Position numbers and translations under genes: made by a program
Source: a virus
DNA length: 32,258 bases
Virus record (IMG/VR): IMGVR_UViG_3300019487_000072
Span: 1 to 32,258 of that record
Reading direction: 5' to 3' (one strand)
Shown: positions 9,801-31,549 of the stretch, one piece after another
Layout of the letters: every line of letters starts with the position of its first letter
How positions within the stretch are numbered: the first letter of the stretch is position 1
The notes under the pieces: model-generated
What the model was told of the DNA's origin: nothing
The model's input: the letters and a program-made list of their open reading frames with translations, nothing else
Database searches by the model: none

Positions 9801-11194
9801 GGCTGCGCCTCCACAGGACGCCCGGCTCTCATGCGCTGTGGGGGCGCGCCGACGTGCATGGCTGCCGCCGTACCGACCGTGGCGGCCGTCTTGGCAAGAT
9901 GCTCCGCCAGCGACCTCCACAGCGACTTGTCACGGTCCCTGCCCACGTCGCCGGTGATGATCTTGTGCGCCAGTCCCGCACCCTCGAACGTCGAGAGCGC
10001 GCCCGTGGTGCTGGCAAGATGCGGGCTCTTGGGGAAGGCGCGCGCCATCCGCGCCCCGGCTACCGAGGCGCCGCCCATCAGCGCAGCCTCGCCTAGAAAC
10101 TCGCCTAGGGACGGCTCGGCGCGTGCGCCAGTCGCCAGTCCGAGCGCCTGCGTGGCCGCGTTGTAGGCCGCCCCACCGGCCACCCCGCGCACCAGACTGG
10201 ACAATGTCCCGACTCCACGAGCCGCCGGGGCAAGGAACGTCGTCCCAAGCCTTGCTCCTTCGCCGACGCCGGCAATCCCGCGCCGCGCGATCGAGTCGGG
10301 GACCGCCTTCTCCTGGGCCGCCACGCCCTCTCGGTGCAGATCGTTCCAGAACGCCGCAGCCATCTCCTCCTCGGTCCACGGCGGTCGTGTGATGCCGGGC
10401 GGGCCATGCGTCACCTCCGTCCCGTAGCGGCCCAGCTGAACGTCCCTTGCCGTCTGCTCAAGCGGCCCGATTGACGTGAACGGCTTGCGCTCAAGCGGGG
10501 TGACGTGGTCCTGTTCCGGGCGCGGCAGGATCTTGATTGGCAGGTAGTCCTTACGCGCCGGCTCCGCGGACGCGGCCTGTCCGGCCTCTGCATCCTGCTG
10601 CTCGCGGAACTGGACGATGCGGCGGGCGACGTCGTTCCAGTCCGGGTTCTCGCCGTACAGACGCGACGCCATGGCGATCTGGCGTGCCCTCTCGTCCTTG
10701 TATGCCTGCCACTTCTTCGCCATCTCCGGGTCACGAGCGGCGGCTTCGTCGAACTCCTTGACCCCTGGAGTACGGCCGACGAACGGCACGTTCGAGAAGA
10801 TGTACGGCAGGCTCTGGCCGCCGCGCGTATCGCCAGCAACCCGCGCTGCGGCAGAGACGCGGCCAGGCGGCGACACGGTCGCGGACTCGAAGATCATCTC
10901 CCCGATCCGGCCCGTTCTGCCGCCAGGGCCGAACCTCTCGGGTGAAGGTCCCGCTTGCGGCGCGGCAGCCGTGGCCGGCGCTGCCGGTTCGGCCACAACG
11001 GTCCGCCCCGCCCTGATCCGTTGCGAGAGGGATTGAGTGCCACGCCCAGCTCTGATCCGCTGCGAGAGGGGCTGGGTGCCACGCCCCGCCCTGATCCGCT
11101 GTGAGAGGGACGACTGTTCAGGCGCGGCGCCCGCCTGCCAGGCCCGCCGTGCCCTGATCCGCTGCGAGAGAGTCTCGTCAGCGATCAGCGCCAC
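6827..11194 (-). CDS. Very large putative internal virion/ejection protein, 1455 aa
   Basis: GTG 11194 has GGGAGG six bases upstream and overlaps the previous gene by 17 bp. The protein opens with four LSQRIRA repeats (residues 9-64), then a Pro/Ala-rich region, a helical and Gly-rich hydrophobic stretch at about 310-390 (GTTFLAPAARGVGTLSSL, AALMGGASVAGARM), a Pro/Gly repeat zone near 510-560 (VVTWAPG repeats), then about 900 residues of mainly charged helices with some hydrophobic helices near the C-terminus (LAHVAMQAAHWMGVLNLAQ, LVKSTGPRTPLWWSLL). Size, helical nature and position downstream of the tail genes match large podoviral internal/ejection proteins. No lytic transglycosylase or polymerase motif was seen. 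Its family is not recognised with certainty. Confidence 0.6.
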   Translation of the reverse strand: MALIADETLSQRIRARRAWQAGAAPEQSSLSQRIRAGRGTQPLSQRIRAGRGTQSLSQRIRAGRTVVAEPAAPATAAAPQAGPSPERFGPGGRTGRIGEMIFESATVSPPGRVSAAARVAGDTRGGQSLPYIFSNVPFVGRTPGVKEFDEAAARDPEMAKKWQAYKDERARQIAMASRLYGENPDWNDVARRIVQFREQQDAEAGQAASAEPARKDYLPIKILPRPEQDHVTPLERKPFTSIGPLEQTARDVQLGRYGTEVTHGPPGITRPPWTEEEMAAAFWNDLHREGVAAQEKAVPDSIARRGIAGVGEGARLGTTFLAPAARGVGTLSSLVRGVAGGAAYNAATQALGLATGARAEPSLGEFLGEAALMGGASVAGARMARAFPKSPHLASTTGALSTFEGAGLAHKIITGDVGRDRDKSLWRSLAEHLAKTAATVGTAAAMHVGAPPQRMRAGRPVEAQPRIRTKWEAREEARQPFREARGKELARERAELPETGPGEAPPRAAVVTWAPGTPRRAVVTWAPGKPGTVVTREAGATTGIPSIPGKPAGAAPARPVGAPVGPVGAPARPLSDYESARAVMDGLIADIRSALRQPQDRSGVLKQIEIDLDAKLLPLVERWNAAKAATDRVLDRVAGKDAKLRRQIAAVGWIENQTDGRASSIFRGKLLPATFDEVVAVMREEGAVNLAIGRALWSVGLLPTARWRRIGAAADEPDVIQMRGEPTPGPGYELVGGRLFHEQRGQWMPIITAIAEETARAKKARGLELAGRGVLGAVRRRGGVESPLSSELLRRHLSGREDTPEEALAKRVLDTSLESMREVMGEELRAVRRMARMERLEREGLLLKERPQSKEQQQALKEARDLDAEIVKLRAAAKKAPPGTALDIAGKISAMIWLRESLRASVRANGGRRLVGSEWGRYEGYYLHPFAESQVRQSMPTLGDFEQLVSTITSTAKSMNVEFNLAQIMLDWVGNWYKMAQAGVGWVRAARETIRAAKTMATRRPRDATDAEFLAMESEASFGGASDVTVREHSASAGLARRIRERIEGGERPRMLQAAAVIQRVPEWWRRVPLLRRVSTARRAWVDEAAALAMFRVAKLRGIEDSGPMPRRDAFDFVRGVLDYSLLPRKIQKSAMFLNWVRWRAKVAQALLTKGLLPRPSILGVKIPTPMDRIIRDPRLRHTRKAQAALVTRGLAHVAMQAAHWMGVLNLAQRALLPVTGVSKEDLDRRVASNYRHAPDFVRWIMQQVALPVGRTKTGRVVALDGGQMNPDITSLMYFISLVKSTGPRTPLWWSLLQKNIPTGTGAQLVARRSYSYLPTDGFERVAPVLGLLVPATITRPINAYLAELDLPEDERSALRNFIVSVGGLPLKALDRPSPVEKLFDRWWSEGVIALADLGDGRWYYYVRPEKVNTASGIQAKQVLGMDEVKEYSFFSASRRAHRRSQQAMEQAQER
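11013..11175 (-). repeat. Four direct repeats encoding LSQRIRAGR
   Basis: On the + strand, CTGATCCG(C/T)TG(C/T)GAGAG occurs starting at 11013, 11052, 11091 and 11154. The first three are spaced 39 bp (13 codons), the fourth 63 bp. In the protein they are residues 9-16, 30-38, 43-51 and 56-64 of the 1455-residue protein. Both the DNA and the peptide are conserved, so the duplication looks recent. Confidence 0.85.
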
Positions 11195-12927: not shown

Positions 12928-13539
12928 TTAGGGGAGTTCCGTTTCCTGCACGGTCCCGGCCGTGACCACCCCTAGCTGCTTCGTGGATACGCCTGTTGCG
13001 GCGCGATAGGCCACGTTCCCGGCGCTTGGAATCGTCCGGCTGGAGTAGCACGCGAGCACGGCAACGACCTCCTGCACCTGCGCATCGTCATCCACCTGGA
13101 AGACGGTGCGGTTGTCGTCCCAAGCATACAAGAGCACCCTCCCGCTGCGCTGCTGCTGCCCGTTCGATACCGTGATGGAGCGCGTCTTGAGCGCGAAGAA
13201 GACTTCGACCGCCCGATCAAGCGCATAGCCCTTGCCGTGCCGGTAGATCGCCAGGCCGTCCGTGGTCCCCAGGCCCTCGGCACTCGCGTCCGCCGCAGTC
13301 AGGACGTTGAACTTCGTGGACCCGGTGCGCGAGTCGATCAGGAACAGATTGGCGTCCTTGCCGAATGCCGCCCTCTCGCGCGTCTCCTTGAGAAGCGCCG
13401 TCACGGCGTCCTTGACCGAACTCAACTGGCGCTGGAGTTCGTCCACGAGCAAGCTCTGCGGACCCGTCGTAGGCAGCGCACCGTTCTGCCCCACCCGTTG
13501 CAGGCGCGACGCCAGTACATCCAGGATCTCGACGTTCAT
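12928..13539 (-). CDS. Putative virion protein downstream of giant nozzle protein, 203 aa
   Basis: The start is placed at ATG 13539, which overlaps the giant gene's TGA as ATGA; an upstream in-frame start at 13602 lies inside that gene. Residues 1-60 are helical (NVEILDVLASRLQRVGQ, DELQRQLSSVKDAVTALLKETRERA). Residues 60-203 look like a beta-rich domain (NLFLIDSRTGSTKFNVLTAADA, GRVLLYAWDDNRTVFQVDDDAQVQEVVAVLACY). A helix-plus-beta layout next to the tail nozzle gene would suit a tail needle, fibre adaptor or internal protein. No family recognised; the role is inferred from position. Confidence 0.55.
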   Translation of the reverse strand: MNVEILDVLASRLQRVGQNGALPTTGPQSLLVDELQRQLSSVKDAVTALLKETRERAAFGKDANLFLIDSRTGSTKFNVLTAADASAEGLGTTDGLAIYRHGKGYALDRAVEVFFALKTRSITVSNGQQQRSGRVLLYAWDDNRTVFQVDDDAQVQEVVAVLACYSSRTIPSAGNVAYRAATGVSTKQLGVVTAGTVQETELP

Positions 13540-16500
13540 GTGGCGACGTAGCTCCCGCGACCGCGAGGCTGCACGTCCGTCTCGATCCGCGTGACCTCCC
13601 AATGGTTGTTCGGCAGTCCGCCGTAGAGCGGGCTGTCGTAGAAGCGGTAGCGGAACCGCTTGCCGCGACCGAGCACCCCGGCCACGATCCCGCGATCAAG
13701 CGTCGGATCCAGCGTCCGCGTGGTGGCCGGCATGCCGTCGTAGCCGACCTCGGCAAGCAACGTCGTCCCCGTGGACGGGTTGAACTTCGCCTGATGGCGC
13801 AGCACGCGCATGTTGCGCACCTCGTCCCCGTAGCGGCCCGACTGCCAATCGGATGCGATCGCTCCCAGCCGCCACTCGAACCCGGCCGGACTCGACGCCG
13901 CCGCGCGCGAGTAATCGACCAGCACCCAGTTCTCGTCGTTCCACAGGATCTTGAGCGGCAGCGAGTTCACCGACCACGGAGACCCTGCGCCGTTCGTGAT
14001 GTAGAGGTTCACCCCGCGCAAGCCGTCCCCAACGACCGGGAGCGAGCTGTTCGTCACCAGCTTGAGCCGCGAATAGACCGCCGAGAACGGCGAGAGTCCC
14101 ACGTCCTGCACCGTGCCGCTGTACGGCGCGGCGACCACGCCGTCGGCGTCCACGTTCTGATCGGGCGGGTCGAACTCGAAGACGTTGCCCTGGATGGTCG
14201 TACACCAAGTCCGCTCCTGGCCGGTCGTCGGATCGGCGATGGTGGACGCGGAAAGCACGTCGCGGTTGGTCTGGAACGTGATCGCGTTGCGTCCCCAGTC
14301 CCACACGATCGCCCGGTCGTTCGCGCTGTTGGGCGAGGTGATCGTCGAACAGAACAGGATGTATTGCTGCTTGCGCCGGTGCGCAACCGCGACGAAGTTG
14401 CGGGAGGCCGCCATCTTGAGCGTCTCCCAGAACCGCATCACCCGGTCGATCGGGCGCCCGAAGATCGGCCGGAAGTTCACCCCGTCGAACAGGTACAGGC
14501 CGCGCTCCGTGGGGATGACCGCCCCGACGCCCTCCACCACCACGATGCTATGATGGCTGATGCAGCCGAGATCGTCACGCAACGACTCGATCTGCACCGG
14601 AGGAAGCGACTGCTCGGCGATCGAGATGTCGCCGCCGGCGTCGAACACCGAGTAGGTCGCCGTCCGCGTGAAGATGAACGCCCGGCCGTTGAGGACCACG
14701 CCGCCGGTCAACTCGGTGGACTGCCCGGAGGTGACGCGGATCTGATACGCCTTCGGGCAGGCGCCGGGCTGGTCGGAGAGCGAGTAGTAAAGCGTGTCCG
14801 GCGCGCCATCCACGCCGAAGTAAAGCGCCCGCGTGCCGAAGGCCAGACCGATGCGCGCGTGCTGGGGCGGCGGATAGTTGAGCCATGAGGTCAACTCGCT
14901 GCCGAGCTTCAAGTCGGTCGTCGAGTCGGTGAAGATGGCGTTGGAGACCTCGTCCCCGACCTGGTTGTTGGGGATGCGGCCGATGAACTTGAAGATCCCG
15001 CCGTTGGCCGTGGTGCGGTAGACGTTGACGTGCGACACCTGCCGCTGCACCGGACGCGGCACGTAGGCGAGCCACACCGCCGTCCATCCCGGATCGCCGC
15101 CGCCGCCGATGTCGTAGGGGGTGATGAACGTCGGCCGCGACGGCGCCCCCTCGATCCCCGTCTCCGAGTCGTAGGGGGTCACGATCCAGCCGAACTTCTT
15201 CCCGTTCGGGAACGGCGGATTGGCGCCCTCGAAGACCGCAGTGATTGCGAACGTCCCGTCGCGGTCGAACTCGCGCCACCCCGGATTCGTCTGATCGTCG
15301 CCGATGTCGCCGTACATGGGCGAGATGCCGGCGTCGGCCACCTTGTCGTTCAGGATGCGCTTGACCGCGCCGAAGCCGGTGCAGACGTAGACGGCATCGC
15401 CGAACTGGAACGCCGTCGGCAGGCGCCAGGAGGTCGTTGCCTGCTGCCACTCATCCGGGGTCGCGCACGCACCGATCGGGCGCAGATATCGGCTCGCCCC
15501 GCTGCCGTCCACCTTCAAGATGACCCCGTTCGAGATCCCATAGACCGACTGCGTGGTGAGGCCGGACGTGGACGCCTGGCGCTTCTGCCACAGCGAAAGC
15601 AGCGGCGGACGGTTCACGCGATCGAGCGCGCCGGCCATCACGCCCCCGGTCGGGAACGGGTTGATCCGCAGGTGATTCTTCAGGTAGCCGCGGTCGAAGG
15701 CACAGCAGCCCTGGCCCTCCTCGAAGTCCCAACTGGACAGCATGGCCGCGCCATCGCGCTGCATCTCCTCCGGGCTCGGGTCGCGCGTCGCCAGCTCGCG
15801 CGCCTCGCTCTCGCCGACATAGCGGTGCCACGCCTGCACCGAACCGATCAGGCCGACGAACGGGTTGTGGCCCCGATACCCGACTCCGTCGTTCACGCCC
15901 TTCACGGTGTCGTTGGTGTTGAAGGCCCAGTAGGGCCGTTCGGCGCCGAGGATGCCGATGCTGTCCACGCCCCACGAACCGAAGCGGAACGCCCACGGAT
16001 CCGGGCGCGTCGCGGCCGGGGTCGTGACGCTGTAGCCGAGCGTGAACTGGAAGCAGGAATCCCTGCCGTCTTCCGTGTCCAGGTTCGGGCTCACGTTGTC
16101 CGAGGCGGTGGTCTGCGACATCCACGGCTTGCTCGCCACCGCGCTGTTGGTGGCCTCGCGCACGCCGTTCAAGAACAACGACATGACGCGGTTGGAGGCC
16201 CCCGCGCTGTCAAACTTCACCGCGGCGATGACGACGTGCGTGGAGCCTCCCACCATCGTCGTCGTGGAGTCGAGGTTGGTGAGCACGCCGGCGCCGTCGG
16301 ACATGGTGAAGCGCAGCACCCAGTTCACCCCGTCGTGAACGATCGCCACCCGCATGATCGGCAGCACCGCGTAGCGATCCTCCGTCCCCGCCCCGCCCTG
16401 GCGCACCACGCTCAGCTCTGCAAGCGTGCGCTGGATGCTCGTCACCGCCGGGATCGAGTCGGCCCGGAACGCGAACCGCAACGACATCTCGGAGGGGAAC

Positions 16501-19500
16501 TGGAATCCGGTGCCTGACGAGGAAGTGGATCGGTTGACGTAGGCGAGTGCGTTGGGGATGCGCACGCCGCCGCAGAAGAGGCGCTGCCCGTAGCGGCTGT
16601 CGGTGTCTCCGCTGCGCATCACCTCGGAGAAGATGGTGTCCTGCGCGGCCGGTCCGGCCGGGATGAATCCCAGCGAGTACGACCCCAGCACGCCGCTGGT
16701 AGGCACCCAGGTCGCATCCGCCCCGGTGATCCATGCCTTGAGATCGGAGGCGCTGCCGTTGCGCAGGAAGCGCGGCCGGATGAATCGGTGGTTCTCCCCG
16801 GCGTTGGTGCTGCCATCCGGGTTCGCACCGATCAGCTCGGGCTTGAAGGAGTAGTAGCGTTCGAGGTCGAAGTTGCGCGCGATGCTCGAAGACAGGACGG
16901 AGGCATCCAGCGTCAACTGCTCGTCCTCGATCTCGCGCTCGACGTACCAATCCGTCGCCGCCGGCGGGGAGGACGTGACCGTGGCCCAGTTCGACGGCAA
17001 CTCGAGCGTGGTCGCGCCGCCCTGCGCGGTCTCGAGCCAGAACCGGATCTCGCTCACCGAGCCGACGAACCCCATCTCGTCGATCACCTTGTCGTTGACT
17101 GGCGCCACCGCGGCGATTCCGGCCCTTCCAGCGGCCTGGTAGGGCCGCCGTCCGACCGTAAGGGGATACTCGACCGTGGTGACCCCGTTGATGCGCAGCG
17201 TCCCGCCCACCGCCTGCGACGAGGAGACGACCGAGGCGGCGCCCTCGATCCAGTAGTACGAGGTGATGGTGGGGGAGCCACCGTCCGTGTATTTCCACGC
17301 CACCCAGACCCGCTTGCCGGGCTCGATCCACGCCCGGTTCGCGCCCGAGGAGTAGAAGAAGTCCACGCCGGCCGGCACGCCTGCGGTCCCGAGCACGGCA
17401 CCCTCGTAGAGCGTCAAGACGGCGAGCAGCCGATCCGTACTGGTCGGATCTGGGATCAATCTCAGCGCCCACTGACCGACGTTTTGCTGTCCCTTCTGGA
17501 CGACGATCGGCTTCAGGATCGGTGATGCCAGCGAGCCGGAGTAGCCGTGGATGATCGGGAGCATCTCCGCCTTGAAGCAGAACTCGATGGCCCAGTCCGG
17601 GTCGCCGTCCCGCACGTCAAGCGCGAGCGCCTGTCCCGACGCGGCGGTGCCGACCGGGATGACGATGATGCTCGGCCTCTCGTGGAAGAAGTCGCGCCGC
17701 CCCGTGCGCGGCAGGTCGATGGCGGAGGGCTCCATCAGCGCCGTCGTCAGCTCGATCGGCCGATGGAGCCACCATTCCTCCCCGACGACGCGGATGCTCT
17801 GCGCCGGCGCTCCGCCCTTGAGCACGAGGTCCGCGGAGCCCGTGAGCACGTTCTTGTAGCCGCGACGCTTGGCGAGCGTGCCGTTGGCGTGCTCCACGTT
17901 GTTCGCCACGACGGCCTCCCCGAGGCCGATGGTCTCGGGAGGGTTCAGGTTGATCCCGCCCACGGGGCGCTGCCGGACCGGCGTGTATTGCGGCATGAGT
18001 CTTAGCACCACGTCCTGCGGCAGCGCCGTGTTCTCAAGCACTACCACGGTGATTGTGAGTGCCGGCACGCTAGCAAGGCTGAGCTTGCCGGTCGATGGAT
18101 CGAACGTGACGTCGCCCACGGCGCGCGCGGACGCATCCACGCGGCGGAAGGTGATCCGCTCCGACTCCGCGCTTCCAGGCGCCCCGAGACCGAGCGTGGC
18201 CGTATCAAGCGTCCCGGACCACTTCGCCGCCGTGTCGGTCCAGTTCGCAAGCGCCACGCACACGCCGCCATCGGACGCCTTCCAGACCCCATGCACCACC
18301 CGCGGATACGCAAAGCGGTCGTAGAGCGTGTCGTAACTGAAGTAGTCGTTGGCAAACGGCCCCTGGGCCAGCCCGGTCGTGAAGTCGGTTCCTGCAACGT
18401 CGAGGACCGCGGGCGCGTGAAAGTCCCCGTATCGCAGGTACTTGAGGAGCCCGCCGCTCTCCGCGGTGATGATCTGCACCCACATGTCGCGCAGCGATCT
18501 AGCCACCGGACTCGCCGGGCCGGCTGGCTGGTAGAGACTCTCGTCCCACGGGTTCTTGAGCGAGACGACGTCGTCCTCGTAGAGCGAGAGCGTGGGGAAG
18601 GTCAGTCCGTAGACCCATTCCGAGGCGAGCACGTAGCCCTGGAAGGCGAGCAGGCCGGGATCATTGAAGAACGGGAGATTCGGGTCCAGGATCGCGGTCG
18701 AGAACTCCTGCAACAGCGAGCGGCCCATCATCTTGCCGCCATGCACGACGGCGTAGAGCGGGATGGTCAGGTAGCGGTGGATGGCCGGGTCGAATCCCGT
18801 GGTGTTCCGCCACAGCCGGCCGGCGGAGACACCGTGGAACACGAAATCGAAGCGATCCTGCGCCGTCTCGTCGATGTCCTCGCACGAGAGCCAGAAGAAT
18901 GGGGTGCGCCCGGCGGCGACTTGCGCGGTCCTCACCGATTCCTTGAGCGCCCCGAGCAGGCTTCGCAGCGCGAGCTTGTGCCAGGATCCTGCGCCGTAGG
19001 GATGCCGGACGTAGCCGCCATTGATCTTCGACCACGTCGAGTGATCGCGGTAGCACAGCGTCGCGCCGGAATGCTGAAGCGCGAGCAGCGGCTCCGAGAA
19101 CACGTCGAAGTAGCGGCCGCAGGCTGCCCACGAGTCCCACAATCCGAGCGTCGAGTTGTTCGCAAGCTGCGTCATGTGCGACGATGAGTTCACCTGCGCG
19201 TGGAAGCACGGCCCCGACGGCAGGCCGAGCAGGCGCAGAACGGCAACCGTCATGGTCGCGTCGGGCGTGACCACGGCACCCAGGCCGTCGAGGAAGTCCG
19301 ACGCCACGGTGACCGAGGCCGCTCCGAGCGATACGACTTCCGCGGATGCGAGGCGCGCGGTGGAGGAGGCCGGGATGATGACTGCGCGCAGAGTGCCGGT
19401 GAATCCGTCCGCGGATGGCGTCCCGGTCACGGTCAGCGTCTTGGTCCCGCCATCCCAGGACACGACCGGATAGATGCGCTCGCGGTAGTAGCCGCTGTCC

Positions 19501-20915
19501 TGCTCCCAGAGCCGGTCGTTGCCGCCGCCCTCGAGACGGCCGGTGCGCGACATCCGCAGCGAGCCGACCATGTCGTTGTTCGTCCACCAGCGGTACTCGG
19601 CGGAGTCGCCAAGCGACTGATGCCAGCGCGCGGTGTCCCACAACTGCGGGCCGAAGTATTGAATGTGCCAGAGCCCGAAGTTGCTGGCTCCGTCAGCGCT
19701 CTCAGCCGCCAGTCGAGCGCGCAAGCCCGTCGCGTCGGCCTCCCCGACGTGCTCGAGGGCGTAGCTGTCGGCCTCGATCACCCCGGCAATCGGTGTCCCT
19801 GGCGGCGCCCCGCAGTTCTCCCGCACCGCCTCCAGGATGGACTCGAAATCGCCGGGCTTCCCAGGCCCGGTAGAGTCGTCGAACAGCAGGTCGATGAAGA
19901 TCGAGTAGTTCTTCTCGAGCGAGGAGATGTCGGTGCGGTGGACCCTCTTCTCGACGTAGAACTCCGGGCGCAGTGCCTCCAGGCGCGCGCGGTACTGCCG
20001 GCCGATGTCCCACCATCCGTGAAACTGGGTGCAGAGCATCGGCCGCAGGCAGAAGGTGTAGCCGGATCCCAGGAAGCGGCCGTTGTTCGCCACCAGCACG
20101 CTGTCCTGCTGCGGCTGGCGCGCCTCCCACTTCAAGAGCGAGCCGGTTGACTCGAAGGTGACCGACATGACCTCGAGCGACCAGTCCTCGACCCACGCCA
20201 TCCACGCCTCGAGCGAAACGGTGTCGTAGTACCCCCAGAATCCCATCGACCAGCCCCGGCCGGACGGGTACTCCCAGGTGTTCGTGGTCAGCAGCCCGAA
20301 GCCGAAGAACGGCTCGCCTCCCACCGGGTTGTAGCGCAGGTGCGCCACCGGATCACGCGAGAGGATGCCGAACACGGTCGGCAGCACCGCGCAATCATTC
20401 GGACGCTGCAGCGGCGGCAGCAGCAGCGGAAGCGGCGTGATGGAGTCGATCGCGTACTTGGTCACCACGCCGCTCCAGTGGGCGAAGATCTGGGCGCGCA
20501 GCCAGTCCTCGCCGTTACGCAGCTCGAACGTCATCGTCACGCTCAGGCGATCCACGCCGCCGACCAGGAGATCGGTCCACGAGATCACGAGGCGCTGCCC
20601 GCCGTCGTGGCGTGTGACGCTCATCGGGCGGATGCTTGCCAGCGTCGGTGTCACCGTCGCGGTCGGGAACGGGGAGCCCGCGGTCGTGTCGAACACCTCC
20701 GCCCGCCACAACTCCGCCACCGAGTTGATCCAGTGCGTGAGCGTCGGCTTGCGCGTGAACTGCACGAGCCTCGCCCCGGTCGTGGCATCCGCGACGAAGT
20801 GGAAGGCGACCTGATCGTTCTTAAGCGTGAAGATCGCGTCCGGCAGGATGCTGCCGATGCCGACCCCGGTAAGCGCGGGGAAGACTCCTGCGCCGGTTCC
20901 GGTGACCGCGGCCAC
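13536..20915 (-). CDS. Giant tail protein: glycoside-hydrolase-like module fused to tail nozzle with LamG inserts, 2459 aa
   Basis: GTG 20915 lies four bases after the previous stop, with GGAG upstream. Residues ~1-965 look like a carbohydrate-active enzyme of the DUF6259/GH type: an N-terminal beta-sandwich with YPSGRGWSMGFWGYYD near 214-233; GWWDIGRQYRARL near 298; an alpha/beta region with CYRDHSTW near 620 and FFWLSCEDIDE near 673; and a C-terminal beta-sandwich near 880-965. From ~974 (PVGGINLNPPETIGLGEAVVANNVE...LAKRRGYK) it reads like a podoviral stabilisation/tail nozzle protein. Two LamG-like beta-sandwiches follow (about 1105-1300 and 1475-1690), then a beta-propeller-like region to the end (GERG-type blades such as VIPTERGLYLFDG). 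The nozzle role follows from position between adaptor and internal-protein genes. Catalytic residues are not proven. Confidence 0.7.
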   Translation of the reverse strand: MAAVTGTGAGVFPALTGVGIGSILPDAIFTLKNDQVAFHFVADATTGARLVQFTRKPTLTHWINSVAELWRAEVFDTTAGSPFPTATVTPTLASIRPMSVTRHDGGQRLVISWTDLLVGGVDRLSVTMTFELRNGEDWLRAQIFAHWSGVVTKYAIDSITPLPLLLPPLQRPNDCAVLPTVFGILSRDPVAHLRYNPVGGEPFFGFGLLTTNTWEYPSGRGWSMGFWGYYDTVSLEAWMAWVEDWSLEVMSVTFESTGSLLKWEARQPQQDSVLVANNGRFLGSGYTFCLRPMLCTQFHGWWDIGRQYRARLEALRPEFYVEKRVHRTDISSLEKNYSIFIDLLFDDSTGPGKPGDFESILEAVRENCGAPPGTPIAGVIEADSYALEHVGEADATGLRARLAAESADGASNFGLWHIQYFGPQLWDTARWHQSLGDSAEYRWWTNNDMVGSLRMSRTGRLEGGGNDRLWEQDSGYYRERIYPVVSWDGGTKTLTVTGTPSADGFTGTLRAVIIPASSTARLASAEVVSLGAASVTVASDFLDGLGAVVTPDATMTVAVLRLLGLPSGPCFHAQVNSSSHMTQLANNSTLGLWDSWAACGRYFDVFSEPLLALQHSGATLCYRDHSTWSKINGGYVRHPYGAGSWHKLALRSLLGALKESVRTAQVAAGRTPFFWLSCEDIDETAQDRFDFVFHGVSAGRLWRNTTGFDPAIHRYLTIPLYAVVHGGKMMGRSLLQEFSTAILDPNLPFFNDPGLLAFQGYVLASEWVYGLTFPTLSLYEDDVVSLKNPWDESLYQPAGPASPVARSLRDMWVQIITAESGGLLKYLRYGDFHAPAVLDVAGTDFTTGLAQGPFANDYFSYDTLYDRFAYPRVVHGVWKASDGGVCVALANWTDTAAKWSGTLDTATLGLGAPGSAESERITFRRVDASARAVGDVTFDPSTGKLSLASVPALTITVVVLENTALPQDVVLRLMPQYTPVRQRPVGGINLNPPETIGLGEAVVANNVEHANGTLAKRRGYKNVLTGSADLVLKGGAPAQSIRVVGEEWWLHRPIELTTALMEPSAIDLPRTGRRDFFHERPSIIVIPVGTAASGQALALDVRDGDPDWAIEFCFKAEMLPIIHGYSGSLASPILKPIVVQKGQQNVGQWALRLIPDPTSTDRLLAVLTLYEGAVLGTAGVPAGVDFFYSSGANRAWIEPGKRVWVAWKYTDGGSPTITSYYWIEGAASVVSSSQAVGGTLRINGVTTVEYPLTVGRRPYQAAGRAGIAAVAPVNDKVIDEMGFVGSVSEIRFWLETAQGGATTLELPSNWATVTSSPPAATDWYVEREIEDEQLTLDASVLSSSIARNFDLERYYSFKPELIGANPDGSTNAGENHRFIRPRFLRNGSASDLKAWITGADATWVPTSGVLGSYSLGFIPAGPAAQDTIFSEVMRSGDTDSRYGQRLFCGGVRIPNALAYVNRSTSSSGTGFQFPSEMSLRFAFRADSIPAVTSIQRTLAELSVVRQGGAGTEDRYAVLPIMRVAIVHDGVNWVLRFTMSDGAGVLTNLDSTTTMVGGSTHVVIAAVKFDSAGASNRVMSLFLNGVREATNSAVASKPWMSQTTASDNVSPNLDTEDGRDSCFQFTLGYSVTTPAATRPDPWAFRFGSWGVDSIGILGAERPYWAFNTNDTVKGVNDGVGYRGHNPFVGLIGSVQAWHRYVGESEARELATRDPSPEEMQRDGAAMLSSWDFEEGQGCCAFDRGYLKNHLRINPFPTGGVMAGALDRVNRPPLLSLWQKRQASTSGLTTQSVYGISNGVILKVDGSGASRYLRPIGACATPDEWQQATTSWRLPTAFQFGDAVYVCTGFGAVKRILNDKVADAGISPMYGDIGDDQTNPGWREFDRDGTFAITAVFEGANPPFPNGKKFGWIVTPYDSETGIEGAPSRPTFITPYDIGGGGDPGWTAVWLAYVPRPVQRQVSHVNVYRTTANGGIFKFIGRIPNNQVGDEVSNAIFTDSTTDLKLGSELTSWLNYPPPQHARIGLAFGTRALYFGVDGAPDTLYYSLSDQPGACPKAYQIRVTSGQSTELTGGVVLNGRAFIFTRTATYSVFDAGGDISIAEQSLPPVQIESLRDDLGCISHHSIVVVEGVGAVIPTERGLYLFDGVNFRPIFGRPIDRVMRFWETLKMAASRNFVAVAHRRKQQYILFCSTITSPNSANDRAIVWDWGRNAITFQTNRDVLSASTIADPTTGQERTWCTTIQGNVFEFDPPDQNVDADGVVAAPYSGTVQDVGLSPFSAVYSRLKLVTNSSLPVVGDGLRGVNLYITNGAGSPWSVNSLPLKILWNDENWVLVDYSRAAASSPAGFEWRLGAIASDWQSGRYGDEVRNMRVLRHQAKFNPSTGTTLLAEVGYDGMPATTRTLDPTLDRGIVAGVLGRGKRFRYRFYDSPLYGGLPNNHWEVTRIETDVQPRGRGSYVAT

Positions 20916-20919
20916 TGGC

Positions 20920-21345
20920 TTACGACTCCGGCAGCAACGCCGTCAGCGCGGTGATAGAAACGGTATCCCCGACCGTGATGGAGGTCGTGTTGAGGATGAT
21001 CTCGGTGCCGACCGTGCCGACGCTCAGTTGCAGGCGCGCGACGCGGTTGCGGTCGAGCACGCGGGCGAAGGATGCCGTCCCGGTCGCGTTCGCCGAGGCG
21101 TCCGTCGTGATCGCGTTGGCGATTGAGATCGCGCCCGGGTTGTTGTCGCTAGCCGCCCCGAAGGCCGGGTTGCTCATCACCAGTTCGGCGAGCAGGGCGT
21201 TGCCGCTCAAGGCGGTGTCCACGTTCGCGGGCGGCGTCCCGCTGTAGATGTTCAGGATCGCAGACGGATTCGTGCTGCCGAGATCGCAGTCATCGACCGC
21301 CTTGTCCAGCATCACCAGGGCGGCGGCATTGGTGAACGACGCCAT
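20920..21345 (-). CDS. Conserved small phage virion protein, 141 aa
   Basis: ATG 21345 overlaps the preceding stop (TGATG). The pattern IYSGTPPANVDTALSGNALLAELVMSNPAFG, then AITTDASANATGTASFARVLD, SVGTVGTEIILNTTSITVGDTVSIT is a widely shared small phage structural protein as I recall it, usually beside tail or fibre genes. It is all-beta with strong Thr/Ala/Ser bias and no catalytic motif. The family's exact virion position is not established to my knowledge. Here it sits between the head-tail adaptor and the giant nozzle protein, suggesting a tail or neck component. Longer ORF upstream in this frame is a shadow of the adaptor gene. Confidence 0.7.
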   Translation of the reverse strand: MASFTNAAALVMLDKAVDDCDLGSTNPSAILNIYSGTPPANVDTALSGNALLAELVMSNPAFGAASDNNPGAISIANAITTDASANATGTASFARVLDRNRVARLQLSVGTVGTEIILNTTSITVGDTVSITALTALLPES

Positions 21346-22085
21346 CAGAAGTCCCAGCACGAACTGGTCTCGTGGATCGTCTTGGGCTCCTGCACGTTCA
21401 TCCTGGCCAGGAAGTCCATCAACTGCCCCTCTCGCCACAGCCGCTCCTGCCGGATGCGATCGGCCTGCGGATAGGCTTCCTCCTTGTTCAGGCACATCTC
21501 GATGGCGTACTTGCCGAGGATGTCGTGAAACTCCTCGATGTTGTCCTTCCCTGACCCGCCGGCTCCGGCGACCTCCTGGAACGGAACGTGGGTGCCGGCT
21601 GCCATCGCGGCTGGGCGGTAGATGTAGCCGATGAGCAGCGAGTTGGCCGTGGTGGCCGAAGGGGTCGGCAGCAGCTCGATCTGCTTCTGGCCGTGCTGCC
21701 GGTAATACATCGGGTAGGCGGTGGTGTTTGGGCCGCCCAAGAGGAAGAAGGACCCGTCTGCGCGCGCGAGCCACTGGTGCTCGACCGTGCGCTCCACCTT
21801 GGTCAGCCTGAGCAGATTGCTGGTGGACGCCCCGAGCCCGACGATCCGATCGACTTCAAGCGTCCGATACAAGTTGGTCGGCAGGTCCACCAACGCCTGA
21901 TTCGCGGTCACCGAAAGCTGGCTGGTCGTTCGGAAGAAGTTCTCGTACTTCTCCGCGATCATCCCGTGCGTCATCAACTCGCTGTCGCGGATGTATTGGT
22001 CAATCTCGGCCTGCGTCCAGTTGCCGGTGGTGAAACTGGTTTGCAGGAAGTTGAGGACGTAGTTCTCGATCGCCGTCAGAGTCAT
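21345..22085 (-). CDS. Head-tail adaptor/connector protein (podoviral type), 246 aa
   Basis: The N-terminus is helical (TAIENYVLNFLQTSFTTGNWTQAEIDQYIRDSELMTHGMIAEKYENFF). The middle is beta-rich with VDLPTNLYRTLEVDRIVGL, QHGQKQIELLPTPSATTANSLLIGYIYRPA, and the C-terminus holds a helix block ending ALARMNVQEP-like (EFHDILGKYAIEMCLNKEEAYPQADRIR). The order, strand for a D(L)P...R(I/V)..V pattern, then a Y.R..P strand, then a C-terminal helical AIE/..A...D block, is that of phage adaptor proteins that sit below the portal. It follows the capsid gene by one small gene. It overlaps the previous gene's stop (ATGA at 22082-22085). Confidence 0.65.
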   Translation of the reverse strand: MTLTAIENYVLNFLQTSFTTGNWTQAEIDQYIRDSELMTHGMIAEKYENFFRTTSQLSVTANQALVDLPTNLYRTLEVDRIVGLGASTSNLLRLTKVERTVEHQWLARADGSFFLLGGPNTTAYPMYYRQHGQKQIELLPTPSATTANSLLIGYIYRPAAMAAGTHVPFQEVAGAGGSGKDNIEEFHDILGKYAIEMCLNKEEAYPQADRIRQERLWREGQLMDFLARMNVQEPKTIHETSSCWDF

Positions 22086-22733: not shown

Positions 22734-24236
22734 TCACGAACTGGCGAAGTCCGAGGCGAGGAGGGCGTGAGCCGCAGCGTGGGCGTTGCGCTTGTTCGTC
22801 ACGCACTCCCAGGTGTGCTCCAAGGTGCCCTCGATGAACGGCGAACGCTCGAACATGCGCCACATGAGCCCGTCGTGCTCCATGAACCGCAGGTCGTGCC
22901 ACTCGCTGATCTCGAGGTAGTGGCTGTTGAGCGAGAGGCAGGTGGCCGCGAGCTGCGTGGTCACGTCGCCCGGGGTCATGCGGTAGCTCGGCGCGTACCG
23001 GCTCGGGATGACCGGCCGATCGGCGTACTCGGGGAACTTGCGGCTCTCCGCGTTCTCGCGGAATCCGCCGCCGGTGTTGCCGGTGACCTCGGTCGTGTTG
23101 ACGGTCCTGCGCACGCCGAGCAGCGTGTTCACGAACTCGGTGCGCAGTCCGAACGTGGTCACGAACAGGTCCGGCAGTTCTCCGCTCGAGATCTCGGGCA
23201 TGTCGAGCATGGACTGCATGATGAAGTTGTTGATCGTGCGCGCAATGGACGAGCGGCTGTTGAACGCCTGCCAGTCCAGTTCGCCCCCAGTGTTGGCCGA
23301 TCCGGGCGTGGCGGTGTGCGGACCGGCGAACTGCGTGGTGGCGTTGATGCCGAACAGGCCGCCGATCGTGGTGCCGTTCTCCATCGGCGTGTCGCAGTCG
23401 AACGCGAGGCCCGTGAGCCCCATCGGCTCGTAGCGCACCGAGGCATCGCGGGCGCCGACGCGCGACGTCGTGTTGATGTTGTCGTTGCCCTTGGTGAACA
23501 CGTCGCCCTGGGCGAGGTTGGTGGCGGTGATCGTGCCGCCGTCGATCGCGCCGAGGATGATGGTCGCGGTCGATCCGCTGACGCTCACGTTCACGACCTT
23601 GACGCAGTTGGTGGCGGCCGTGCCGGCCGAGACGATGGTGCGCTGGGTGGCGCCGGCCGTGCGCGCGGTCCAGCCGTTGATGAACTGATCCCTGGCGAAC
23701 TTGCGGCCATCCTGGAAGTTGTCGAGAACGACGGTGATCTGGTTGGCGGCGACCGAGGGGGTGCCGGAGACCACGCCGAGCGTGCCGGAGCCGTCGCCCA
23801 TGAGGATCCGCTCGTTCTCGTTCATAAAGTCGTTGCCGGTGCGCGTCGCGGCCTCGGTCAGGACGCGGGCGTAGGCGGCCGCGGAGCCCTTGGTGCGGTT
23901 GATGGCGGCCATCGAGACCTGGGCCGACCAGTAGCCGGTGCGACCCTGCTTCAACCCCTGCCGGTAACGCTGGGTCCCTGCCGACGCCCACTTGCCCTCG
24001 GGGTCCTGGAACGTTCCGGTCGCATTGCGGCCGAGGTGGACCGCGAAGTTGCAGGTGCGGGGCGGCATCACGCCGGACGGGTAGGGACCCGTCGAGCCGA
24101 TAGTGACCCCGCCGCCGTCGGCGGGCCGCTTGGGGATCCACTTCCAGATCCGCGTGTCGTTGTTCTTCAGCTCCTCGATGACGCCGACGTACACCGTCTT
24201 CATGGCGTCTACGAACGTGCTCAGATTCTCGGCCAT
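22734..24236 (-). CDS. Major capsid protein (HK97-fold type), 500 aa
   Basis: The protein follows the scaffold gene, is 500 residues long and has the composition of a capsid protein of podovirus-type phages. Features include the N-terminal helix (NLSTFVDAMKTVYVGVIEELKNND), an extended loop-like stretch (ADGGGVTIGSTGPYPSGVMPPR), a long helix (SMAAINRTKGSAAAYARVLTEAATRTGNDF), a central beta-rich insertion (about 170-260), and a C-terminal beta/alpha block with PVIPSRYAPSYRMTPGDV and LRFMEHDGLMWRMFER. It should form the icosahedral shell. A hairpin after the stop suggests special mRNA handling. ATG 24236 has GAGG nine bases upstream. Confidence 0.82.
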   Translation of the reverse strand: MAENLSTFVDAMKTVYVGVIEELKNNDTRIWKWIPKRPADGGGVTIGSTGPYPSGVMPPRTCNFAVHLGRNATGTFQDPEGKWASAGTQRYRQGLKQGRTGYWSAQVSMAAINRTKGSAAAYARVLTEAATRTGNDFMNENERILMGDGSGTLGVVSGTPSVAANQITVVLDNFQDGRKFARDQFINGWTARTAGATQRTIVSAGTAATNCVKVVNVSVSGSTATIILGAIDGGTITATNLAQGDVFTKGNDNINTTSRVGARDASVRYEPMGLTGLAFDCDTPMENGTTIGGLFGINATTQFAGPHTATPGSANTGGELDWQAFNSRSSIARTINNFIMQSMLDMPEISSGELPDLFVTTFGLRTEFVNTLLGVRRTVNTTEVTGNTGGGFRENAESRKFPEYADRPVIPSRYAPSYRMTPGDVTTQLAATCLSLNSHYLEISEWHDLRFMEHDGLMWRMFERSPFIEGTLEHTWECVTNKRNAHAAAHALLASDFASS

Positions 24237-25305: not shown

Positions 25306-25740
25306 TCAGGTGTATCGGCCGGACGGGGAGCTGGCTCCGCCGCCGCGGCAGATCGCCACGAACTCGAGCCGGCCGGCGTTGACGGAGGTGGCGTTGGCAA
25401 CCTCCGTCTCGGACGGCTGCGCGACGCCAGGGGATCCCGTGGTGCGCCCGAGCAAGAACAGCTTGATGGCGCCGTTGGTCGGGACGTAGCGCGCGGCGGC
25501 CTCGCCGGTGGCGATCTGGGCATCGGAGATGCCGCCCATGAAGGCGATCGCGCGCACCGTGTTGATGCCGAAGGCGAGGCGGAACTGGCCCATGAGCCGG
25601 CGTGCGCGCACGTTGGCATCAGCGTTCTCGCCGATGCCGCCGGTCAGATAGGTGTCCGCGCCACCCCAGGTGATCGTCCCGCGGCAGCGCACGTCGGCGC
25701 CGCACGTGGTGGTGCTGATCGCGGTGACCGTGGCTGCCAT
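25306..25740 (-). CDS. Small tandem-paralogue virion protein C, 144 aa
   Basis: The product is beta-rich with a Gly/Ala/Thr-rich composition, and carries an N-terminal CGADVRCRGTITWGGADTYLTGG segment. Its C-terminal third (IKLFLLGRTTGSPGVAQPSETEVANATSVNAGRLEFVAICRGG; pattern hxLxxxGxxG...V...E(T/V)E...N) lines up with the ends of the two genes upstream. The three sit head to tail between portal and scaffold, one base apart. Position and size fit head decoration or minor head proteins; the function is inferred. The start ATG 25740 lies immediately after the previous stop. Confidence 0.6.
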   Translation of the reverse strand: MAATVTAISTTTCGADVRCRGTITWGGADTYLTGGIGENADANVRARRLMGQFRLAFGINTVRAIAFMGGISDAQIATGEAAARYVPTNGAIKLFLLGRTTGSPGVAQPSETEVANATSVNAGRLEFVAICRGGGASSPSGRYT

Positions 25741-26642: not shown

Positions 26643-28712
26643 TCAGGAGAATGGTTGAAGTCCGCGCGACTCCGGGGCGGGTTGCCCTGGCGGCGGGCCG
26701 GCACCCCTCTGCGGCGGACCTTCGCCCTCGAAGTTGGTCTCTTCCGGCGGCACGAGCCCCGCCTGCGGCATCCCCGGCGGCAGGGACGCGCCGGCGGTGG
26801 GCATGGCGATCTGGTAGTGCCCGAGGCAGTGGCCGTCGATCAGGGCGCGGATGATGGGCGGCGCATTCTTGTATTCGTCGCTCTTGCGCATCTTGTTGTG
26901 CGTGACGAGATGGACATCCTGATCCTGGTAGGGCGTGGGCGGCTCGATGGCCTCGCCGAGCAGCATCCTGCGGTTCTCGAGCATCGCCTCGCGCTCGTCG
27001 ATCGACTTGTCATCGGCCAGCCGGCTGTCGTCCTCCATGCCCAGCATCCGCCACACGCGCACGCGGTCCTGGGAATCCGCGGCGCTCAGCCAGCGCTCGC
27101 CGGGCGCGAGCATGGCGAGCAGCTCAAGCGCCATCGCCTTGCTCTTGGGCTGCATCGAGTCCACGTCGATCGAGACATCCGTGTTCCCGAGCAGGTCGGC
27201 GCCCTTGAACTCGACCACGTCAAACTGGTTGCCGCGCCCGACGATCTTGATGAGACGGTCCTCGATCGCGTAACGCTGGAGGTATTCGAGCACCAGCGTC
27301 CCCCACTCCGTGAAGCCATCCACCATGCGTTCGATGACGGGGCTGCGGTTCTGGTTCTCCTGCTCGATCAGGGACAGGTAGGCGCGGCCGGAGATCTTGC
27401 CGGAATACTGGCCGCGTCCGGGGCCGAAGGAGGAAGTCACGCGGTCGAAGTCCGCGATGACGGAGGAGCGCAGGTCGGGGATGCTCGCCGGCAGCGGGGG
27501 CGGGGCCAGCCAGTTTGGGCGCTCGATGCCGTTCCACTTCACGCGCTCGCCGATCTCGGTGATGAAGGCGGTATCGGGCAGGCCGTTGGTGCGGTGTTCG
27601 AGAAGCGCCGCATTGGCGGTCTTGACGACGTGCTCGATCTCTTTGTTCTGGACCCGGTTGTAGGTGCGCTGGAGCGGCACCATGTTGTCGAGGTTGGGCT
27701 GGCCGTAGAGGCCGTCCATGTTCAGTTCGTCGCGGATCCAGATCAGCGAGCGCTTGCCGGATGGGTGGGGGTTGTCACCGAGGAAGAGGACCACACCGTT
27801 GCATTCGATGATCAGCCGGCCGCGCGGGTAGTAGATCGACGGCGTCTCGACGAGGCGGCGCGCGAAGCACCAGTTACGCCATTCCTCGCTGCCGCTTGAG
27901 CTGTCTCCTCCCCCGAACATGCCGAGGCGGTGGAAGAACCACCGGCTGCGGTCGCGGCCGTAGCCGTCGCGGATGATCCCGGGCGGGACCATCGCGGCCT
28001 TGTCGGGGAAGTGGCGTTCGACCCACTCGATCCGTCTCGGGCGGGCGTCGATCCACCAGGTCAGGTCATCGGGCCGCGTGGCATAGGTGTCCACGAAGAC
28101 GTGGAAGGGGGAGAGCACCTCGGTCTCGATCTCGCCGTCCCATTCGACGTCCTCCACCTCGAGGATCTCGCCATCCGTGGTCATGATCTGGCGCGGCTCG
28201 GCGATCATTTCGCCGCCATGGGGGTCCCAGCCGACAGCGAGGAAGGCGTTGCCGGTGGTCTTCAGGCTCTGGAGCAGCTCCCACTTCTTCTGCGGCATCC
28301 GCAGGAAGTCCCAGTAGTGGGCGAGGGCCTTCTCGGCGACGTTGGCGGCCTGGAGGTCTTCGGGGTCGGTAGTCTTGGGGCGGGACTTGAAGCGCGGCCG
28401 GAAGGAGCCGATGTTGGAGATTTCCTGACGGGTGTACGGGCGGCAGAGGTTGTGCGCGAGGCGGGAGCGCCAGCGCAGAGTCGAGGCCGTGGGGCGCACG
28501 AGGGAGCGCGAGACCGGGTCCACGTCGAAGAACTGATACCCCGCGACGAAGGCGCGATTGACCTCCCATTGGGCCTCGAGCCGCAGCCGCAGCGGGTCGG
28601 AGGGGGCGAAGCGACGGTCGAGTTCGGCCAGCGCGGCCTTTTCCTCATCGGATGGGCTGTACGGCGCCGTCTGGGAGCGGCGCAGGTCGCGCGGGTGGGT
28701 GAGTACGTTCAC
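26643..28712 (-). CDS. Portal protein, 689 aa
   Basis: The protein is of podoviral portal size and layout. After an N-terminal acidic helix it has HNLCRPYTRQEISNIGSFRPRFKSRP, a central WNW/clip-type region (DPHGGEMIAEPRQIM, VLSPFHVFVDTYATRPDDLTWWIDARPR), the characteristic long region with VVLFLGDNPHPSGKRSLIWIRDELNMDGLYGQPNLDNMVPLQRTYNRVQN (written in part), DFDRVTSSFGPGRGQYSGKISGRAYLSLIEQENQNRSPV (in part), and a Pro/Gly-rich disordered tail (GMPQAGLVPPEETNFEGEGPPQRG). It forms the dodecameric ring through which DNA enters. It precedes capsid genes and follows terminase in the usual order. Start is GTG 28712; the RBS is weak. Confidence 0.82.
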   Translation of the reverse strand: MNVLTHPRDLRRSQTAPYSPSDEEKAALAELDRRFAPSDPLRLRLEAQWEVNRAFVAGYQFFDVDPVSRSLVRPTASTLRWRSRLAHNLCRPYTRQEISNIGSFRPRFKSRPKTTDPEDLQAANVAEKALAHYWDFLRMPQKKWELLQSLKTTGNAFLAVGWDPHGGEMIAEPRQIMTTDGEILEVEDVEWDGEIETEVLSPFHVFVDTYATRPDDLTWWIDARPRRIEWVERHFPDKAAMVPPGIIRDGYGRDRSRWFFHRLGMFGGGDSSSGSEEWRNWCFARRLVETPSIYYPRGRLIIECNGVVLFLGDNPHPSGKRSLIWIRDELNMDGLYGQPNLDNMVPLQRTYNRVQNKEIEHVVKTANAALLEHRTNGLPDTAFITEIGERVKWNGIERPNWLAPPPLPASIPDLRSSVIADFDRVTSSFGPGRGQYSGKISGRAYLSLIEQENQNRSPVIERMVDGFTEWGTLVLEYLQRYAIEDRLIKIVGRGNQFDVVEFKGADLLGNTDVSIDVDSMQPKSKAMALELLAMLAPGERWLSAADSQDRVRVWRMLGMEDDSRLADDKSIDEREAMLENRRMLLGEAIEPPTPYQDQDVHLVTHNKMRKSDEYKNAPPIIRALIDGHCLGHYQIAMPTAGASLPPGMPQAGLVPPEETNFEGEGPPQRGAGPPPGQPAPESRGLQPFS

Positions 28713-29538: not shown

Positions 29539-29936
29539 TGCGCGGGTCCGTTGCGGTCGAAGTCGAGCGTGGTGAGAACCGGGCGCTCGGCCTCGGCGCG
29601 GATGGCTTCACGGGCCTCCCTGGCCTTGTCTGCGGCCGCGGAGGGAGCGGGGCCGTCACTGCCGGGGCTTTCCGCGAAGTGCTGGCGAGTCGCGTATTGC
29701 GCACCCTCGACCAATCCCGACCTGTCGCGCATGTTCCCGTAGTTGTTGGGCGCCGTCATCGCCATCCAGCGGTCGAGCACCTTGTCGCTGTTGCGCATGA
29801 AGGACTTGATGCGTTCATCGGTCTGCGCCATGAGGCGCATGATCTCGCGCATGAAGACGCGCGTGCTCCACGCCGAGGAGAGCACGAGCACGGCGAGCAG
29901 CAGGGAGAGCACGATCTCGGATGCGGTGACGTTCAT
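29535..29936 (-). CDS. Single-TM protein between terminase and ejection-like gene, 133 aa
   Basis: ATG 29936 overlaps the terminase stop in ATGA; an upstream in-frame start at 30008 lies in the terminase gene. The protein has one TM segment at about 8-24 (IVLSLLLAVLVLSSAW) after a short extracytoplasmic N-terminus, then a helical region (RVFMREIMRLMAQTDERIKSFMRNSDKVLDRW) and a charged, Ala/Glu-rich C-terminus. An N-TM/coiled-coil protein in a late operon can be holin-, spanin- or injection-related. No recognisable family. It stands directly upstream of the Gly-zipper gene, with coupled translation. Confidence 0.6.
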   Translation of the reverse strand: MNVTASEIVLSLLLAVLVLSSAWSTRVFMREIMRLMAQTDERIKSFMRNSDKVLDRWMAMTAPNNYGNMRDRSGLVEGAQYATRQHFAESPGSDGPAPSAAADKAREAREAIRAEAERPVLTTLDFDRNGPAQ

Positions 29937-31549
29937 GGTTCCTCCCAATCGCCTCTCATGGCGTTCGCGCCGCCGGGTACCAGGAATCTCGTGGCCTGAG
30001 AGTACCACCTTTCCGCGGCGGCCGTCTTCCTGGGCGCGGCGGTAGCCGGATCGACCGAGGCGCAGATGTATAGGAACGTGTCGATCATATGGTCATCCCG
30101 TTTGACCGGCTCCTCGGTCTGCGGCTGCTCATCGGAGCGACGGGTCTTCCAGCGGTAGCGTTGGATCTCGCTGATGAAGTTCTCGCAGTCCGAGGTCACC
30201 TTGAACCGCGTTTGCATGTTCTCGTCGAGCGCGATCAGGGCGGCGGCGGCAGGGATCTGGTCCTTCTTGCGCCCGGCCCGGTAGGCCGGGTTCACGCGCA
30301 CTCCGGCCGCGACGAAGAGATCTGCGATCGAGCGTCCCGAGCCGGCGAGCGTGTACGCGAACGCCGAGGGGTCGATCAGCGTGTATTCGTAGGTTTCCTT
30401 GCCGGAGAGGGCCTTCACCTTCTCGGCGATGCGCGGGACCTCGAGCTGGACCTCGTAGAGTTCGCGGTAGAGGTAGAGCGTGCCGTCGTTCACGGCATAC
30501 CAGCCCACCGCGCAGGCGTTGTGGTAGCCGGGGTCGATGACCCGCCACTTCGGCCATTCCGCGATCAGGGCGGGATCCAGCGGCGGGATGACGTGCTTGG
30601 CGAGCGAGAAGTGGGGGAAGACGAGGCCGCCGGAGCGGGCGGCGAAGTCGCCCTCGTATTCCTGCCGCCAGACGTCCGATTGTCTGCCGTTGTACTTCGC
30701 GGCCTGGGCGTTCGCCCACGCCTCGTCGTGGTCCTCGTCCGCGCGCCAGTTCAGATCGCAGACGGTGGTGTTCGTCCGCGTCTGCCAGATCTTCATGCCC
30801 TTCATGGGCTCCTGATAGGACTCGATCCTGATCGGGGCCTTGTAGAGCGTCTCGAAGAACCCCGGCGCGGCGGTGGAGATGATCCAGAGCATCCCGCGCT
30901 CGCCCAGTGCCGGCAGCAGGGCGAAGTAGGCCTGTCCTGCGTCTTCCTGGTAGGCCATCTCGTCGGAGACGAAGTAGCGCCAGGTGTATTGTCGGACCTG
31001 GGCTTCTCCCTGGGGGATGGCGTGGATGTCGGAGTCGTTGTCGGGGAAGCGCAGGTGCAGGAAGCGCGGTTCGCAGGGAGCCTCTTCCCGCGCCACGGCC
31101 GGCAGGCGCTCCCACATGCCGAAGATGCGCTTCAACATCTGATCGGTGTCTTCGGCCTTCTTGCCCTGCCAGCCGCAGCGCACGGCCTTGCCGGTGATCG
31201 CGTGCCACAGGAGCATGGCGCAGGCGAACCACGACGCCATGACCTGTCTCGACTTCAGCATGACGTGGATCTTGTCGGCGCTCTTGGCATCGGTCGAGAG
31301 CCACTGATCGAGCATGATCCGCAGGTACTTCTTCTGCGGGAACGGACGGTACTCCTCGCCCTCCTTCGCCAGTTCGTTGCGGGTGAGGGCGAGGTGGGTC
31401 AGGAAGTACCAGGGGTCCTCCTGCGCCGCCTTCCAGTTCCACGCTTCCCAGGCGGCGCGCAGCTCTACAAGCGCGAGGGTGGAGGTCTCGTGCGCGATCT
31501 TGGCGCGCAGGACCTCAAGCGACTGAGCCGTTTTGCTGGTCAGCGCCAC
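29933..31549 (-). CDS. terL: Terminase large subunit
   Basis: The 538-residue protein has an N-terminal ATPase domain with the deviant Walker A motif LKSRQVMASW (about 98-107), Walker B YFVSDE (192-197, Asp196-Glu197) and a coupling motif WIISTAAPG (222-230). The C-terminal RNase H-like nuclease domain carries acidic positions at VIDPGYHN (Asp339), LIDPSAF (Asp393) and DDHMID (Asp486, Asp490). It cuts concatemeric DNA and drives packaging through the portal. The start is GTG 31549 and the first 35 bp overlap the putative small terminase. The deviant Walker A (KSRQ type) is common in this group. Confidence 0.92.
   Translation of the reverse strand: MALTSKTAQSLEVLRAKIAHETSTLALVELRAAWEAWNWKAAQEDPWYFLTHLALTRNELAKEGEEYRPFPQKKYLRIMLDQWLSTDAKSADKIHVMLKSRQVMASWFACAMLLWHAITGKAVRCGWQGKKAEDTDQMLKRIFGMWERLPAVAREEAPCEPRFLHLRFPDNDSDIHAIPQGEAQVRQYTWRYFVSDEMAYQEDAGQAYFALLPALGERGMLWIISTAAPGFFETLYKAPIRIESYQEPMKGMKIWQTRTNTTVCDLNWRADEDHDEAWANAQAAKYNGRQSDVWRQEYEGDFAARSGGLVFPHFSLAKHVIPPLDPALIAEWPKWRVIDPGYHNACAVGWYAVNDGTLYLYRELYEVQLEVPRIAEKVKALSGKETYEYTLIDPSAFAYTLAGSGRSIADLFVAAGVRVNPAYRAGRKKDQIPAAAALIALDENMQTRFKVTSDCENFISEIQRYRWKTRRSDEQPQTEEPVKRDDHMIDTFLYICASVDPATAAPRKTAAAERWYSQATRFLVPGGANAMRGDWEEP

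Follow-up and report, generated by a model that had tools for sequence, protein, structure and literature searches.

A 2459-residue phage tail nozzle with a beta-rich insertion and a probable glycoside-hydrolase-like N-terminal region

Can an enzyme that degrades a surface glycan be built into the tail nozzle of a short-tailed phage? In podoviruses, depolymerases usually come as separate spikes that can be exchanged. A sequence-only reading of the window, here the whole linear IMG/VR virus record of 32,258 bases, had proposed that one ORF joins a glycoside hydrolase (GH)-like enzyme to a nozzle in a single protein, possibly replacing a separate tailspike. We give slightly better than even chances to a related reading, in which the ORF encodes a short-tailed-phage nozzle that was enlarged twice, by a probable GH-like N-terminal fusion and by a beta-rich insertion.

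A giant ORF in a podoviral late module

The 2459-residue ORF is uninterrupted, as had been reported, and runs on the minus strand from 20915 down to 13536 with a GTG start. All of the motifs quoted from it earlier are present: YPSGRGWSMGFWGYYD at residues 216-231, CYRDHSTW at 621-628, WLSCEDIDE at 675-683 and NNVEHANGTLAKRRGYK at 1005-1021. GC content by codon position was coding-like over the full length of the ORF (GC3 0.77-0.97). Codon usage correlated with that of the other late genes at r 0.98 for residues 1-965, 0.98 for residues 966-1780 and 0.94 for residues 1781-2459. Therefore, this is not a chance ORF.

The ORF belongs to a podoviral late module. Genes for the large terminase subunit, portal, head protein and SU10-type adaptor, a phrog_3758 gene and the giant ORF follow one another on the same strand (Table 1). 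They are followed by further late proteins without family matches, and an Erf-type recombinase is encoded on the opposite strand at the left end of the window. The terminase showed only a distant relationship to known phages, and tblastn with the head protein found nothing in the phage collection. The C-terminal part of the giant protein, the head protein and the portal were each used for scans, none of which found a relative. Since the fusion comes from a single contig without any relative, it is unreplicated.

Several other genes in the window deserve mention. Three small tandem proteins are encoded after the portal on the minus strand (26214-26630, 25742-26212 and 25306-25740). Paralogy is clear for the first two (z 8) and weaker for the third; all three are possibly involved in head decoration. 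A late protein of 1455 residues (6827-11194, minus strand) had no Pfam or PHROG match and is perhaps an internal virion or ejection protein. Among the early genes, 3010-3633 on the plus strand encodes a left-handed hexapeptide-repeat protein (Hexapep, 2.3e-10) that matches phage families without an assigned function.

Table 1. Features of the giant ORF and of the neighboring late genes, with positions in the window.
Feature	Positions	Strand	Evidence
One ORF of 2459 aa joining an enzyme-like N-terminal region to an enlarged tail nozzle	13536..20915	-	coding-like GC3, uniform codon usage
N-terminal region, residues 1-965, GH-like by motif order and weak DUF6259 collinearity	18021..20915	-	global alignment z 3.9-4.3
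D604 codon (GRYFDVF), candidate catalytic nucleophile	19104..19106	-	alignment to GIYLDQ Asp; putative role
E679 codon (SCEDIDE), candidate acid/base	18879..18881	-	near DUF6259 Glu; putative role
ATG of M974, matching the first residue of free-standing nozzles; possible internal start	17994..17996	-	nozzle N-terminus alignment
Nozzle N-terminus, residues 974-1023	17847..17996	-	residues 982-1023 align with UFV-P2 nozzle 9-50
Insertion in nozzle, residues 1024-1780, beta-rich, two LamG/ConA-like modules by reading	15576..17846	-	absent from free-standing nozzles
Nozzle core (propeller region), residues 1781-2459	13536..15575	-	phrog_3287 1.2e-15 and phrog_511 3.2e-8 (query 1780-2459); 9nwi_Y 4.9e-5
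Nozzle tip-type domain, residues ~1896-2026 (Fn3/Ig-like by reading)	14838..15230	-	Amaethon nozzle alignment
Garland-type tail protein, directly upstream of giant ORF	20920..21345	-	phrog_3758 1.6e-29; pLDDT 90 model; Foldseek 9rkv_A 2.9e-8; profile 3.7e-17; PMC12796354
SU10-type adaptor (ring on which nozzles assemble)	21345..22085	-	PF24175 2.5e-13
Major head protein	22734..24236	-	phrog_14242 8.8e-20
Portal protein	26643..28712	-	phrog_156 2e-23
Terminase large subunit	29933..31549	-	phrog_2 4.2e-29

An enlarged nozzle and its junction

The assignment of the C-terminal part to a nozzle is borne out by PHROG and PDB nozzle matches, by alignments to free-standing nozzles and by the SU10-type adaptor encoded two genes upstream. 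In a search with the whole protein, residues 2037-2249 matched phrog_3287 at 1.9e-17 and residues 1945-2145 matched phrog_511 at 2.2e-7, and both families were found again with the C-terminal part as the query. The best solved relative by sequence was 9nwi_Y (six chains). A nozzle profile that included the window protein matched 9nwi, 8jov, 7z47_G (1005 aa) and two chains named nozzle. Its length, its family and PMC9509320 indicate that 7z47_G is the SU10 nozzle. Within the core, residues 1896-2026 aligned to residues 236-354 of the Amaethon nozzle with a score of 115, where the best shuffle reached 49. The protein thus combines a core profile match, an N-terminal segment ahead of the propeller and a place beside the adaptor in a podoviral late module. 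By analogy with its relatives, it would form a hexamer, in six copies, with a seven-bladed propeller. In SU10, the platform domain touches the adaptor, and nozzle domains interrupt the propeller between blades 2 and 3 (PMC9509320).

An insertion of roughly 755 residues, overlooked in the earlier reading, splits the N-terminal segment of the nozzle from the propeller. Residues 1024-1780 have no counterpart in the free-standing nozzles that we compared (486-711 aa) and gave no Pfam, PHROG or PDB family match, nor a match to a LamG/ConA profile. The two halves of the insertion resemble each other weakly (10 of 300 shuffles were as good). They read like two LamG/ConA-type sandwiches, and these beta-rich modules possibly bind glycan.

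The UFV-P2 nozzle aligns over its residues 9-50 with residues 982-1023 (none of 300 shuffles was as good), and we therefore place the ancestral nozzle start at M974. An out-of-frame TAA lies five bases before this ATG, and the neighboring genes stand similarly close together. A small indel may therefore have joined two adjacent genes into the present frame. The same two features, and the coincidence of M974 with the start of free-standing nozzles, also speak for two adjacent genes today, one for an enzyme-like virion protein and one for a nozzle from M974. These would either appear as one ORF through a one-base assembly error or be fused and also translated separately from ATG974. We regard this as improbable. 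The frame looks protein-like to about residue 963, which would confine an error to some 27 bases (near codons 962-970), the codon statistics continue through the junction, and no strong Shine-Dalgarno sequence precedes ATG974. Much less credible still is an assembly chimera of two different phages near 18000, the break that the sequence-only reading had named as fatal to its claim. A singleton contig without relatives leaves room for such a chimera, but no composition break was found at the junction, and GC and codon usage are uniform across the ORF. In addition, the structural genes occur once each and in normal order on either side, and the junction falls exactly at a gene start. On these grounds, we rejected a random chimera near 18000. 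We treat the ORF as real, and its product as a real and unusually large nozzle whose enzyme part is probable.

The N-terminal region and the enzyme reading

Residues 1-965 had no match in Pfam, PHROGs, NCBIfam or the PDB, even at E-values of 5-10. No relative of this region was found by exact-peptide scans of viral and bacterial genome contigs, by tblastn against plasmids and phages, by a DNA search for the motif GWWD-x4-YR, or in whole records of viruses with the garland-type gene. The order of its motifs (YPS..YYD, GWWD..YR, YFD, CY..H, CED) recalls what we take to be the arrangement in DUF6259 proteins, and this likeness was used as a lead and then tested. Searches with the whole protein and its segments gave no Pfam match to DUF6259 (PF19773) at E-values up to 5-10, and a genome search found none in the window.

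As a query for a reference protein, we used a 72-residue string of DUF6259-style motifs. It retrieved one protein on a Subdoligranulum record, which Pfam assigns to DUF6259 at 9e-34. Comparisons of the N-terminal region (residues 1-965) with this verified protein by BLASTP, hhalign and phmmer were not significant. An end-free global alignment of residues 1-975 with the same protein, with cheap gap extension, scored z 3.9-4.3 against shuffles, whereas 185 control proteins had a mean of -0.3, a standard deviation of 1.1 and a maximum of 3.2. The signal fell to 2.6 at gap costs of 10/1 and was lost at ordinary gap costs (z 0.04 and 0.8). Terminases carrying intein/LAGLIDADG insertions, tail proteins and a protein without a Pfam family scored highest among the controls, and none of them is an enzyme of this type. 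Since the best controls are unrelated terminase and tail proteins, the global alignment score is suggestive and not proof. As a separate observation, LAGLIDADG/intein-like insertions were seen in the terminase genes of two viral contigs (L018:4999-7608 and L022:2799-5783, plus strand).

The alignments also bear on the candidate catalytic residues. In 13 of the 24 alignment settings, though not in the PAM250 alignments, D604 paired with the GIYLDQ Asp of the DUF6259 protein, and C621 paired with the ACYC Cys in 18 of 24. In many of the 24 settings, the Glu of the MTEN motif and E679 lay about three residues apart. A DNA pattern search found no further DUF6259 proteins, and the phages that were searched held no clear one. 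A single-sequence AlphaFold model of residues 1-968 had a pLDDT of 32 and was uninformative on the fold.

What stands of the earlier GH claim is therefore weak collinearity with one DUF6259 protein (z about 4), in which a putative catalytic Asp coincides, while it gained no family, profile or local match. Residues 1-965 probably have a GH-type fold; enzymatic activity of this putative enzyme is less likely than the fold. Alternatively, the region could extend the nozzle in a structural or receptor-binding role and not be an enzyme, comparable to the extra domains and fiber dock of the SU10 nozzle. No enzyme family was detected in residues 1-965, nozzles with large non-enzymatic additions are known (PMC9509320), and phrog_14417, part of which is nozzle-like, carries the name 'tail fiber protein; host specificity'. 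All three points fit such an extension. However, the DUF6259 collinearity exceeds that of all 185 controls, the putative catalytic Asp is often paired, and the motif order reads like DUF6259, and we consider a purely structural extension possible but rather unlikely.

The adjoining tail gene, a proposed mechanism and known systems

The phrog_3758 gene bears on the earlier statement that no other fiber or spike gene is visible. Members of its family are encoded in late or tail regions in phages of Mycobacterium, Vibrio, Rhizobium, Rheinheimera and Agrobacterium, and many viral contigs have them too. The product of 20920-21345, modeled with 46 sequences, resembled 9rkv_A, a tail-fiber entry from Agrobacterium phage 7-7-1, in both fold (TM 0.73) and profile (Table 1). 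The tail of phage 7-7-1 has a long fiber, a short fiber and a small garland protein, gp014, around the fibers (PMC12796354). The size of chain 9rkv_A, 141 residues, makes it most likely that it is gp014, and the window protein is probably a garland-protein homologue. Since a fiber-associated component is encoded directly upstream of the giant ORF, the claim that fiber machinery is absent is weakened. Moreover, the record is a linear fragment, so a gene's absence from it says little. The statement is unsafe, and the replacement of a separate tailspike is unsupported, with the genome incomplete and a probable fiber-associated gene adjoining. The phrog_3758 family, so far annotated only as 'virion structural' or hypothetical in many phages, could be named in this way across several phage types.

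Direct evidence covers the ORF and its coding character, its homology to nozzles, where the fusion lies, the inserted stretch, and the adjoining adaptor and garland-type genes. The following mechanism builds on these. About 970 residues of a probable GH-like enzyme would have been fused ahead of the ancestral nozzle start codon, and a beta-rich stretch of about 755 residues, whose modules possibly bind glycan, placed between the N-terminal segment and the propeller. Judging from the homologues, the nozzle hexamer would sit beneath the adaptor ring. The N-terminal module would then lie near the adaptor or platform, roughly where other podoviruses dock spikes or fibers, and the inserted modules on the propeller's outer face. 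The modules would bind surface polysaccharide and the enzyme would trim it before or while the nozzle opens, after which the genome would pass. In its full form, this means a glycan-degrading enzyme held covalently in the nozzle in six copies, with inserted carbohydrate-binding modules and a garland ring nearby, so that one protein performs both clearance and channel opening without separate tailspikes. We offer this only tentatively and think it doubtful as a whole. If true, a nozzle-fused enzyme fixes host specificity in the channel protein, receptor processing could be coupled to channel opening, and depolymerases of this kind escape searches for free-standing spike genes.

The proposed task, breaking down surface glycan at the tail, is that of podoviral tailspike depolymerases, but these form trimeric beta-helix spikes of their own that dock on the tail and are not fused to the nozzle. 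The literature that was searched yielded no precedent for an enzyme fused to a nozzle. DUF6259 (PF19773) proteins share a similar motif order and, in one member, weak collinearity over the whole length, without a significant profile or local match; unlike them, the 2459-residue protein stands in a phage virion context. The garland protein gp014 of 7-7-1 (PDB 9rkv) is like the product of 20920-21345 in sequence and fold, but it surrounds the fibers of a contractile tail, whereas the window gene sits beside a nozzle gene in a podoviral module.

Among nozzles, the LUZ24-like (phrog_3287; PDB 9nwi; 513 aa) and KF-1/Amaethon-like (phrog_511; about 605-630 aa) proteins have an alignable N-terminus and core, and their genes likewise follow head and adaptor-position genes. 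They have neither the N-terminal enzyme-like region nor the 755-residue insertion and are four to five times shorter. The nozzle of Kuravirus SU10, gp17 (7z47, 1005 aa; PMC9509320), which is hexameric in SU10, also combines a platform and propeller with added domains and an SU10-type adaptor. It has gained Ig-like nozzle domains, placed between blades 2 and 3, and a fiber dock loop, with no enzyme in front, and it is less than half as long as the 2459-residue protein. Even without enzymatic activity, a nozzle of this size with additions at two positions would widen the lesson of SU10 on the cargo that a nozzle tolerates.
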